NCBI GenBank assembly: GCA_012932295.1
Contig: JAAONU010000002.1
Coordinates: 37,879,521-37,943,520, forward strand
Direction: 5' to 3'
DNA length: 64,000 nucleotides
Source: Cyclina sinensis
Lineage: Eukaryota; Mollusca; Bivalvia; Venerida; Veneridae
The translations under genes were made by a program, and so were the position numbers. Every line of letters starts with the position of its first letter. The stretch's first letter is position 1. Shown in pieces: positions 1 to 38,310 of this stretch. The notes below the pieces were generated by a model, which made no database searches, was not told where the DNA came from, and saw only the letters and a list, made by a program, of their open reading frames with translations.

Positions 1-23
1 CGTTAACCATTAAAATTAATCTG

Positions 24-243
24 AATGAATGAATGAATGAATGAATGAATGAACGAACGAACGAACGAACGAACGAACGAACGAACGAACGAACGAACGA
101 ACGAACGAACGGAATGTACGGATGAATGATGAATGAAGAATGAATGATATGAATGAATGATATGAATGATATGAATGAATGAATGAATGAATGAATGATG
201 AATGAATGAATGAATGAATGAATGAATGAGTGAATGAATGATA
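24..243. repeat. (GAAT)n/(GAAC)n microsatellite, unit 1
   Basis: Runs of GAAT and GAAC tetranucleotides with GAAT-GAT interruptions. It lies upstream of the first gene copy. On the minus strand it gives a spurious Ser/Phe/Ile/His-rich reading frame. Confidence 0.95.
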
Positions 244-555
244 TTTCATATTTTCATGATTAAGTATTCTGTAGTTTAAAGAAGAAAATAAAAATACCTG
301 ATTGATCTACATGCCTAATTTCTTTGTTTGCAAACTTGACATGGACTCCATTACTCATAAGTCATGCATGGAATGTTTTACAGTCACTCTAATCTAATCA
401 AGCCTTTCACGTTTGTTAATCATCGATTAGCGCCTGTCATTGTTGTTTTAACGACTCGTGTTAATTAGGTGTCAACTCATTTGGTAGTGTAGCAGAAAAC
501 TCCACACGTCAAAAAATATGGCACTTATGACTTGTGTATCTGCCTCTCAAAGTAA

Positions 556-564
556 TATAAAAAG
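556..564 (+). promoter_or_regulatory. TATA box of gene copy 1
   Basis: TATAAAAAG lies 59 bases before the ATG at 615. With the usual 25-30 base spacing, transcription would start near 585-590, giving a 5' leader of only about 30 bases. Short leaders and TATA boxes are common in histone genes. Copy 2 has the same site with one A fewer. Confidence 0.65.
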
Positions 565-614
565 GGCAGGGACGAACTGTAAGTCATATCTGTCTTGCAA
601 TAGAAATATTCAAG

Positions 615-943
615 ATGCCTTCTAAAATCAAATCTCTGACAAGCGTTTCACTTTGAGTGAAGCAGAGCGTCGTTTTCGAAAAGCCTGTGACCAGATCGTC
701 ATGTTGAACAAGCGTCTCGGCGAAGTGCAGAAACGGTACAAGATGGCAAAGAAAAGCAACAATAAATCATTCCGTTACAATCTACGTCTGAAACTTGCCG
801 TCATTGAAGGTTCCCGTAACATGTTCTATGACTACGCATATGCCAAAGCAGACCAGGTCGCCGAGCTACGAAGAGAGCTTTTCAACGAGTCAGTTGAGAT
901 AGTGTCAGCTTCCGATTCGGAATACTCCTCAGACTCTGACTGA
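615..943 (+). pseudogene. Small basic protein with histone-type 3' end, copy 1 (frameshifted)
   Basis: This matches the intact gene at 1997-2326 except that one T is missing in 'aatctctgac' near 636 (copy 2 reads 'aatctcttgac'). From the ATG at 615 translation would stop after about 13 codons. The rest of the frame is open from 653 to the TGA at 941-943 and matches copy 2 there. Because the units also differ by other one-base indels, this may be a consensus error rather than a true lesion. Product, context and 3' processing signal are as described for copy 2. Confidence 0.7.
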
Positions 944-982
944 GTCGCACTGGATGTAAATCGCAAGTCGTTTTCCACAAAC

Positions 983-1020
983 GGCCCTTTTTAGAGCCAA
1001 CCAAATATCTCGAAAGAGGT
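983..1020 (+). terminator. Histone-type 3' stem-loop and downstream element, copy 1
   Basis: The sequence GGCCCTTTTTAGAGCC lies at 983-998, 40 bases after the stop codon. It fits the metazoan replication-dependent histone stem-loop: six-base stem, four-T loop, GG...CC closure, 5' flank CACAAAC and 3' flank AACCAAA. One stem position is a C-A mismatch. A purine-rich CGAAAGAGG at 1011-1019 sits where the U7 snRNA-binding downstream element is expected. No polyadenylation signal is close. By established biology, such an mRNA is cleaved just after the loop, is not polyadenylated and accumulates in S phase. Confidence 0.8.
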
Positions 1021-1416
1021 ACTTCTCAGATAAATTGTCTTTGAATATTTTAGTCCTTTCACTACACTTATATTTAAGCACCACTACAGCCTTTCCTTTT
1101 ATGACTTTGCATTTGCAAAATGCACTCTTTGCCACCTATATCTTACCTATATACTCGAAGTAAAGCCAAATTTTTGACAAAAGGGCCGGTCTTTTTGTTT
1201 GCAATCAATCTTGTCCATTCCAAGAACTATGCCGTATAATCTCATTGCAGCGGAGTTGATATATAAAAAAGGAGAAAATGAGGTTTATATTTACACAACC
1301 GTTCTATTGCTTGCTGCAAACATTTGCATTTCTAAGGAAATGAATTCAGCTGCAAATGTTTAGAAACAAAAACATACTAACAAAACTGTTACGTTAACAT
1401 TAAAATTAATCTGCAT

Positions 1417-1630
1417 GAATGAATTGAATGAATGAATGAATGAATAATGGAATGAATGAATGGAACGAATGAATGTACTGAATGAATTGAATGAATGAAC
1501 TGACTGATCGATCGATACAATGTACTGAATGAATGAATGAATGAATGAATGAATGAATGCAATGAATGATATGAATGAATGAATGAATGAATGTAATGTA
1601 CTGAATGAATGATGAATGAATGAATGATAT
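1417..1630. repeat. (GAAT)n microsatellite, unit 2
   Basis: GAAT runs interrupted by GATC, TACA and GAT segments. It lies at the same place in the second array unit as the tract at 24-243, but has no GAAC run. Confidence 0.93.
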
Positions 1631-1938
1631 TTTCATATTTTCATGATTAAGTATTCTGTAGTTTAAAGAAAAAATAAAAATACCTGATTGATCTACATGC
1701 CTAATTTTCTTGTTTGCAAACTTGACATGGACTCCATTACTCATAAGTCATGCATGGAATGTTTTACAGTCACTCTAATCTAATCAAGCCTTTCACGTTT
1801 GTTAATCATCGATTAGCGCCTGTCATTGTTGTTTTAACGACTCGTGTTAATTAGGTGTCACTCAGTTGGTAGTGTAGCAGAAACTCCACACGTCAAAAAT
1901 ATGGCACTTATGACTTGTGTATCTGCCTCTCAAAGTAA

Positions 1939-1946
1939 TATAAAAG
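1939..1946 (+). promoter_or_regulatory. TATA box of gene copy 2
   Basis: TATAAAAG lies 58 bases upstream of the ATG at 1997, at the same place in the unit as the TATA box of copy 1. The sequence between TATA box and ATG is almost identical in the two units, which supports one promoter per gene. Confidence 0.65.
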
Positions 1947-1996
1947 GGCAGGGACGAACTGTAAGTCATATCTGTCTTGCAATAGAAATATTCAAG

Positions 1997-2326
1997 ATGC
2001 CTTCTAAAATCAAATCTCTTGACAAGCGTTTCACTTTGAGTGAAGCAGAGCGTCGTTTTCGAAAAGCCTGTGACCAGATCGTCATGTTGAACAAGCGTCT
2101 CGGCGAAGTGCAGAAACGGTACAAGATGGCAAAGAAAAGCAACAATAAATCATTCCGTTACAATCTACGTCTGAAACTTGCCGTCATTGAAGGTTCCCGT
2201 AACATGTTCTATGACTACGCATATGCCAAAGCAGACCAGGTCGCCGAGCTACGAAGAGAGCTTTTCAACGAGTCAGTTGAGATAGTGTCAGCTTCCGATT
2301 CGGAATACTCCTCAGACTCTGACTGA
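1997..2326 (+). CDS. Small basic protein, histone-type mRNA, intact copy (109 aa)
   Basis: Single-exon gene of 109 codons plus TGA. The ATG at 1997 is chosen because it gives the full frame directly after the short leader; a longer frame from 1844 would run through the TATA box. The protein starts MPSKIKSLDKRFTLSEAERR. Residues about 10-90 are rich in Lys, Arg, Glu and Leu and look helical (AERRFRKACDQIVMLNKRLG, later AELRRELF). The tail SASDSEYSSDSD is acidic, Ser-rich and suited to casein kinase 2. No signal peptide or membrane segment is seen. I do not recognise it as H1, H2A, H2B, H3, H4 or a protamine. The histone-type 3' end and tandem arrangement suggest S-phase or germ-line expression and a chromatin or nucleic-acid role; that role is inference only. 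Confidence 0.8.
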   Translation: MPSKIKSLDKRFTLSEAERRFRKACDQIVMLNKRLGEVQKRYKMAKKSNNKSFRYNLRLKLAVIEGSRNMFYDYAYAKADQVAELRRELFNESVEIVSASDSEYSSDSD

Positions 2327-2365
2327 GTCGCACTTGATGTAAATCGCAAGTCGTTTTCCACAAAC

Positions 2366-2402
2366 GGCCCTTTTTAGAGCCAACCAAATATCTCGAAAGA
2401 GG
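2366..2402 (+). terminator. Histone-type 3' stem-loop and downstream element, copy 2
   Basis: The 16-base stem-loop at 2366-2381 is identical to that of copy 1, again 40 bases from the stop codon and followed by AACCAAATA. The purine-rich TCGAAAGAGG is at 2393-2402. The same C-A stem mismatch is present in both copies. Confidence 0.8.
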
Positions 2403-2687
2403 TACTTCTCAGATAAATTGTCTTTGAATATTTTAGTCCTTTCACTACACTTATATTTAAGCACCACTACAGCCTTTCCTTTTATGACTTTGCATTTGCA
2501 AAATGCACTCTTTGCCACCTATATCTTACCTATATACTCGAAGTAAAGCCAAATTTTTGACAAAAGGGCCGGTCTTTTTGTTTGCAATCAATCTTGTCCA
2601 TTCCAAGAACTATGCCGTATAATCTCATTGCAGCGGAGTTGATATATAAAAAAGGAGAAAATGAAGGTTTATATTTACAAACCGTTC

Positions 2688-2787
2688 NNNNNNNNNNNNN
2701 NNNNNNNNNNNNNNNNNNNNNNNNNNNNNNNNNNNNNNNNNNNNNNNNNNNNNNNNNNNNNNNNNNNNNNNNNNNNNNNNNNNNNNN
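2688..2787. other. Assembly gap of 100 N
   Basis: Exactly 100 N, the conventional filler for a gap of unknown size. Sequence before it is array spacer (equivalent to copy 1 up to 1304); sequence after it is unrelated. Reading frames crossing the gap are meaningless. Confidence 0.99.
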
Positions 2788-16597: not shown

Positions 16598-16871
16598 GTA
16601 TGTAACCATTGTCAGTTCACTTGTATCATGATTGTACATGTCATATGAGGTAGTTGGTTTGGCTCTGAAAGAAAAATTCTAATTTTGACTGAAAGAAATG
16701 GAACAGAAATTTGCCAAATTTGTCCTATATAATGTTGATAAAGCTAGAAAATCATTTTTGTTAAAACATTTGAAATGAAGTATGTTTCCAAGCTTCTCTG
16801 TATAGTCTTAGACAATTACACTAAGTTAGTCATCTGCTGAAGTTATGATGCCACCATTGAAAACTTTTCAG

Positions 16872-37479: not shown

Positions 37480-38310
37480 TTAGAAAGGTATATATGTTCA
37501 GTGGTGTATACAAGAGGAAGGCAGTCAGTGATGTATAAAAGATTTAGAGACTGTCATTGATGTATAAAAGATTTAGAGACTGTAAGTGATGTATAAAAGA
37601 GGAAGGCAGTCACTGATGTATAAAAGATTTAGAGACTGTCAGTGATGTATAAAAGGGGAAGGCAGTCAGTGATGTATAAAAGAGGTAGGCAGTCAGTGAT
37701 GTAAACAAGAGGCAGGCAGTCAGTGATGTATAAAAGAGGTAGACAGTCAGTGATGTATAAAAGAGGAAGGCAGTCAGTGATGTATAAAAGAGGAAGGCAG
37801 TCAGTGATGTATAAAAGAGGAAGGCAGTCAGTGATGTATAAAATAGGAAGGCAGTCAGTGATGTATAAAAGATTTAGAGACTGTCAGTGATGTATAAAAG
37901 ATTTAGAGACTGTCAGTGTTGTATAAAAGATTTAGAGACTGTCAGTGATGTATAAAAGATTTAGAGACTGTCAGTGATGTATAAAAGATTTAAAGACTGT
38001 CAGTGATGTATAAAAGAGGTAGGCAGTCAGTGATGTGTAAAAGATTTAGAGACTGTAAGTGATGCATGAGAGGAAGGCAGTCAGTGATGTATAAAAGAGG
38101 TAGGCAGTCAGTGATGTATAAAAGAGGTAGGCAGTCAGTGATGTATAAAAGAGGTAGGCAGTCAGTGATGTATAAAAGAGGAAGGCAGTCAGTGATGTAT
38201 AAAAGAGATAGGTAGTCAGTGATGTATAGAAGAGGAAGGCAGTCAGTGATGTATAAAAGAGGAAGGCAGTCAGTGATGCATAAAAGATTTAGAGACTGTC
38301 AGTAGATAAA
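37480..38310. repeat. ~27-bp minisatellite carrying TATAAAAG in most units
   Basis: Two interleaved unit types, AGTCAGTGATGTATAAAAGA + GGAAGGC and GATTTAGAGACTGTCAGTGA + TGTATAAAA, repeat about 30 times. Diverged single units extend to about 37030 and 38365. It is intronic, between sushi exon 20 and linker exon 3. Confidence 0.95.

Follow-up and report, generated by a model that had tools for sequence, protein, structure and literature searches.

The question raised by this locus is whether a gene that does not code for a histone can carry the 3' end of a replication-dependent histone gene; in the portions of the literature on which we draw, 3' processing by SLBP and U7 is described as unique to histone mRNAs. 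The locus opens the window, by which we mean the whole 64,000-nucleotide stretch of Cyclina sinensis DNA analyzed here (C2:37,879,521-37,943,520 of an assembly of 903 Mb in 154 contigs). A sequence-only reading had proposed a tandem, intronless gene of 109 codons in this place, and this holds for copy 2, which is open throughout its 109 codons and has no intron in the coding region, but not for copy 1, in which a 1-nt deletion that the reading had not mentioned breaks the frame after 8 codons (the frame 626-940 is open). The TATA boxes that it claimed are present as TATAAA at 556 and 1939, in each unit 58-59 nt 5' of the ATG. Alignment of the two units (table 1) in 1,067 columns, with the microsatellite left out, shows 4 substitutions and 9 single-base gaps, and the only other ORFs of at least 100 codons in the unit are one that lies across the microsatellite on the reverse strand and another across the gap. 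Elsewhere in the window, six ORFs of 201-243 codons between 16294 and 58583 look by eye like one repeated domain, with Sushi/CCP-like pieces, also recognized by eye, at 16841, 22206, 32223 and 53116; this region is probably a large VWA/CCP gene. A 27/81-bp tandem repeat of ~29 copies occupies 37498-38303.

Table 1. Features of the two array units at the start of the window (positions are those of the window).
Feature	Position	Strand	Basis or remark
Tandem array units 1 and 2	first 2,687 bases	.	direct reading
TATA box, unit 1	556..561	+	TATAAA 58-59 nt 5' of ATG
Copy 1 of the hairpin-protein gene	615..943	+	frame broken by 1-nt deletion near 636
Histone-type 3' stem-loop, unit 1 (GGCCCTTTTTAGAGCC)	983..998	+	RF00032 25.0 bits, under cut-off
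Purine-rich U7-type downstream element (HDE), unit 1 (GAAAGAGG)	1012..1019	+	conserved in paralogs
Third conserved element, unit 1 (CTCAGATAAATTGTC)	1025..1039	+	similar sequence in paralogs and linker-histone gene
TATA box, unit 2	1939..1944	+	TATAAA
Copy 2, intact 109-aa intronless gene	1997..2326	+	open ORF
Histone-type 3' stem-loop, unit 2 (GGCCCTTTTTAGAGCC)	2366..2381	+	RF00032 and R1
HDE, unit 2 (GAAAGAGG)	2395..2402	+	
Third element, unit 2 (CTCAGATAAATTGTC)	2408..2422	+	
Assembly gap, 100 N, after last unit	2688..2787	.	

After the stop codon each unit has, in this order, the stem-loop GGCCCTTTTTAGAGCC, AACC, the purine-rich GAAAGAGG and CTCAGATAAATTGTC. The stem-loop starts 39 nt past the stop in copy 2, and GAAAGAGG, with its core GAAAGA, begins 13 nt past the hairpin in both units; the HDE of histone genes lies ~13-17 nt downstream of the hairpin. 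The 16-base stem-loop and purine-rich downstream element described earlier were found in both units, directly as well as by search tools, and GGYYYTTYTNARRRCCAMCMA has no further mismatch-free occurrence in the window. In a scan with the histone stem-loop model, both sites match Rfam Histone3 (RF00032; E 4.5e-4 when 2,687 bases are searched with 4,227 families, E 0.011 on the whole window), but with 25.0 bits they remain under its gathering score of 34. The stem is imperfect, having a C.A mismatch at the fourth pair. A 31-nt piece folds with -5.3 kcal/mol (z -2.5, with 4 of 200 shuffles folding equally well); the bare 16-nt hairpin folds no better than shuffles (z -0.5, 95 of 200). Those copies of arrays A-C that were inspected retain the C.A mismatch, as does L054, and the tails of two database relatives (P0045 and P0122, see below) imply A.C instead of C.A at the same pair; such a mismatch could weaken the binding of SLBP and may tune its affinity. 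A third element, CTCAGA..TTGTC, lies 3' of the HDE in the window units and in paralogs. The core of the U7 Sm site is AATTTGTC, which this third element resembles.

The same 3' end was then sought in other copies of the gene with R1, a covariance model of the stem-loop, the U7-type purine element and the third element derived from nine 3' ends. R1 gives 81.2 bits to the hairpin of unit 1, a site that is one of its own training rows, and matches all 34 array loci searched (L001-L030 and L062-L065). Outside the arrays we fetched 36 loci (L042-L061 and L066-L081), a subset of the divergent places, which have 28-59% protein identity and are spread over ten contigs; R1 matches 19 of these at E<0.01, among them 7 training rows, and 22 at E<=1, and has no match in 14; the matches in the two-hairpin genes, as well as those in L058 and L074, are weak, with 24-34 bits. 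None of the 11 PF00125 loci is matched. Stem, HDE (of the GAAAGA type found at +13 in the window) and third element are shared with paralogs whose proteins are 28-59% identical. The Histone3 cut-off of 34 is passed by four of nine paralogs (L049, 38.8 bits; L051, 35.9; L047, 35.6; L077, 34.4) and missed by the other five (L076, 31.4; L053, 22; L081, L042 and L045, unlisted at E<=0.1). The stem varies from GGCCCT/AGGGCC (L047, L049, L051, L076) to GGTCCT/AGGACC (L077) and AGTCCT/AGGACT (L081). In the nine sequences, two of the six stem pairs have substitutions on both sides, and pairing holds in 96.3% of cells versus 59.3% and 48.1% when the stem is slid by one. Of 500 shuffles, 4 attain the paired-cell count and the covariation score, but 58 have at least as many pairs substituted on both sides and 272 at least as many pair types. 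Direct reading revealed two successive hairpins ahead of the HDE in L042-L044 and L075 (AGCCCTTTTCAGGGCT followed by a hairpin of the form GGTC..GACC), in L045/L048 (GGTCCTTGTAAGGACC, then GGTACC..), in L046/L066/L067 and in L054; such consecutive hairpins may bind two SLBPs. Those array copies among L001-L004 and L062-L065 that start at the same ATG and for which upstream DNA was available have a TATA box at -57 to -59, and TATAAA occurs within 160 nt upstream in only 10 of the 36 divergent loci, the starts of which were chosen by script.

The window protein has 127 matching places in its own genome, fragments included, and its identical 109 residues are encoded at 48 places, several others being broken by stops or truncations. 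Genome-wide, the hairpin pattern has 106 matches versus 1 for the reversed control. Among the 100 of these 106 matches that are listed, 16 sites fall in array A (C2:37.86-37.88 Mb), of which the two of the window are the last before the assembly gap, 50 in array B (C2:49.77-49.87 Mb) and 6 in array C (C13:36.88-36.93 Mb); outside the arrays, 3 lie at divergent paralogs and 25 elsewhere. Comparison of the window copy with an array C copy yields 18 synonymous changes and 1 nonsynonymous change (dS 0.31, dN 0.004, ratio 0.013), and four of six other paralog pairs have ratios of 0.11-0.28, the remaining two being too distant to estimate. The contrast between the window and array C copies shows that purifying selection on the 109-aa protein is very strong.

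The protein itself is not a recognized histone, in agreement with the sequence-only reading. No Pfam family scores above the cut-off shown for the window protein, and Pfam searches for a known histone, linker-histone or protamine family list none for 34 A1 members (window included, E<=1) or for eight divergent relatives (E<=0.1); among solved chains, none is better than E 0.46. AlphaFold2 modeling with 34 sequences predicts helices at residues 4-47 and 51-90, with a mean pLDDT of 84 and a low-confidence tail, and the structure matches to this model are generic hairpins only; in place of a histone fold, the prediction shows a long helical hairpin. Residues 1-90 carry a net charge of +13 and the tail of -6, the pI being 9.6. 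The acidic C-terminal tail contains the core VEIVS.SD, which is SUMO-interaction-like. Phospho-regulated SUMO-interaction motifs have a hydrophobic core followed by acidic and Ser residues. A core of this kind is present in 114 of 127 relatives versus 14% of shuffles, although the rows are non-independent and one divergent clade is without it. A role of the protein in chromatin is a tentative proposal, and one that we would not favor over its absence.

A comparison within the same genome is provided by L093 (C6:10,219,193), one of 20 sites fetched out of the 25 pattern sites listed elsewhere. It codes for a domain of the linker-histone family (PF00538, with 42.8 bits over a cut-off of 22.4) together with Ser/Arg-rich repeats, features by which it differs from the window protein, and resembles the PL-I proteins of clam sperm. 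Its 3' end (L093/L102) consists of a hairpin, ACC, CTCGAAAGAG and CTCAGAAATTGTC, ordered as in the window genes and with similar spacing, and has a Histone3 score of 34.5, at or above the cut-off of 34. Because this 3' end contains each of the three elements seen in the window genes, the window signal looks like the organism's histone-type signal; core histone genes were not located in the genome, and the comparison is with this single linker-histone gene. The RNA-binding domain of SLBP (PF15247, cut-off 27) is found on C8 in two pieces of 59.4 and 35.6 bits, the better of which, a putative SLBP gene, is reported with one internal TAA. The U7 model RF00066 has no match in the genome, but has none in any control genome either.

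Beyond this species, the window protein retrieves 164 relatives at E<=1 (the best 120 listed), a profile search 550 at E<=10 (the best 120 listed) and a divergent paralog used as query 50. The only species named among the matches listed are Mya arenaria and Dreissena polymorpha, from which we infer a bivalve family, consistent with the lineage specificity proposed earlier. The Mya hypothetical proteins MAR_017180-017292 and MAR_001624-001631 are 59-83% identical to the window protein, and Dreissena DPMN_057142/057150 share 60-66% identity with the piece of a Mya paralog that served as query; these relatives have clustered locus tags and are unnamed, without recorded function. Many database ORFs extend past the stop into the 3' flank, apparently with TGA read as Trp. 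When TGA is allowed as Trp, back-translation of 39 ORF tails can yield the GGYYYTNNHNARRRCC hairpin in 11 (shuffles 0.2-4.2% each), several of the 11 being near relatives and the 39 including five rows cut inside the protein by rule (P0132, P0133, P0135, P0144, P0145). The tails of P0045 and P0122 do not fit the hairpin unless pair 4/13 is left free, those of P0029/P0032 stop before the hairpin is complete, and the strict hairpin is absent among these 39 from the tails of 14 P0105-like rows and others. Hairpin-bearing tails lie in both deep clades of a tree of the 57 rows, out of 151, that remained once redundant ones were filtered out, a tree that provides no test of gain or loss because only ORFs running on could show the hairpin. 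The P0105/P0113 group consists of a related protein in hundreds of contigs (241 and 124) with variable C-termini.

The signal is also found next to other genes. A GAAAG/AAAGA core with TTGTC downstream occurs in 14 of the 20 extra pattern sites (0.19% in shuffles), in search windows that were set after seeing the sequences and with rows that are partly near-identical copies. These 14 are the linker histone L093, L086-L088, L096, L100, L083 and seven dispersed copies. L086-L088 (C3:36.21-36.23 Mb), L096 and L100 are multi-copy, GDSL/SGNH-hydrolase-like ORFs with hairpin, purine element and TTGTC; L100, the sole GDSL-like ORF scanned, has Lipase_GDSL_2 at E 1e-5 and 26.6 bits, under the cut-off of 32.9. 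L083 is an ORF without Pfam match that has the same 3' signal. The dispersed, apparently non-coding copies (L082, L084, L089-L092, L094) show a GGTCCTTTTTAGGACC-type hairpin with CAGAAAGAAATACC-like and ATCAAATTGTC-like sequence and are possibly a mobile element carrying a histone-type 3' end; some of the extra pattern sites may, indeed, be mobile elements. The coiled-coil-like ORFs L085, L098 and L101 fail the test for core and TTGTC but show a looser version of the signal; in L097 (Rfam score 35.1) the HDE core is present without TTGTC, and L095 and L099 have neither HDE core nor TTGTC. The chances seem to us evenly balanced that the SLBP/U7 pathway of this bivalve lineage serves a non-histone regulon, comprising the hairpin-protein superfamily with the unrelated GDSL-like and coiled-coil multigene families, in which a third 3' element would be specific to the lineage and some genes would have two consecutive hairpins.

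The earlier proposal of a non-histone gene with a 3' end of the replication-dependent histone type is sustained by the conservation among paralogs, the stem changes on both sides, the Rfam passes of four of nine paralogs, the linker-histone gene and the SLBP domain. On the strength of the 3'-end matches in arrays and paralogs, of these Rfam passes and of the same elements in L093, we consider it likely that non-histone genes use SLBP/U7 3' processing in this clam. The genes, their copy number, purifying selection, conserved 3' elements and pairing-preserving stem changes are established by the sequence. In the mechanism that we propose, the arrays would be transcribed from TATA promoters as short intronless pre-mRNAs, in which SLBP would bind the stem-loop while U7 snRNP would pair with the GAAAGA element (CTCGAAAGA). 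The pre-mRNA would then be cut a few bases past the hairpin to give a non-polyadenylated mRNA; in C. elegans, cleavage is reported 3-6 nt past the hairpin (PMC1924863). Such mRNA would be found mainly during S phase or as a store in germ cells, with a high dosage arising from ~70 tandem copies that would be homogenized by concerted evolution, as in histone arrays. In this way a very abundant protein, shaped as a helical hairpin, may be provided for S phase or for the oocyte, where it would act on chromatin or on SUMO-marked nuclear structures.

The same features could also be read in other ways. The hairpin may have been inherited or captured while the mature mRNA is mainly polyadenylated and the histone pathway is not its main route; H2A.X is a known dual case (PMC7807067). 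Hexamers do occur 3' of the first hairpin (AGTAAA at 1159, TATAAA at 1262, ATTAAA at 1399 and AATAAA at 1673) and many relatives are on short contigs that may be RNA or DNA in origin; however, the nearest ATTAAA/AATAAA is ~400 nt past the hairpin, and the recurrence of stem, HDE and third element in divergent paralogs, with pairing kept through the changes, renders this reading unlikely. Rather less probable still is a mobile or satellite-borne gene in which the 3' signal would serve the element and not the host, even if the high copy number, the scatter of the 36 fetched divergent loci over ten contigs and the same or similar signal in dispersed, apparently non-coding copies and in multi-copy GDSL-like and coiled-coil ORFs all point in its direction. 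Against it, the close copies lie in three tandem arrays, their unit has no further ORF of at least 100 codons besides the two mentioned above, the dN/dS is 0.013 and 48 places encode an identical protein.

That the protein could be a derived histone, of H1 or protamine-like nature, is suggested by its small size, basic character (pI 9.6) and histone-type gene anatomy. Nevertheless, neither the family searches nor the solved chains reported above indicate such a relationship, the predicted structure is a two-helix hairpin and the real linker histone of the genome is recognized at once, so that we regard this derivation as very improbable.

We therefore return to the use of the histone pathway by genes of a different kind. 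Like replication-dependent histone genes, the genes of this family are intronless, have short UTRs, lie in tandem arrays, in which they have a TATA box, and have a hairpin ~40 nt past the stop, with an ACC-type flank and a purine HDE at 13 nt; they differ from them in the non-histone nature of their protein, in a stem that is often GGCCCT/AGGGCC or has the C.A mismatch, in the addition of the third element CTCAGA..TTGTC and, in some paralogs, in two hairpins in a row. The natural stem variants, namely the C.A mismatch and the double hairpins, could be used to probe the requirements of SLBP and U7. Since non-histone genes carry a histone-type hairpin and downstream signal, the histone mRNA pathway does not seem to be limited to histones; a conserved, high-copy non-histone family with a histone-type end would, if true, break the histone-only rule and name new S-phase-coupled proteins.
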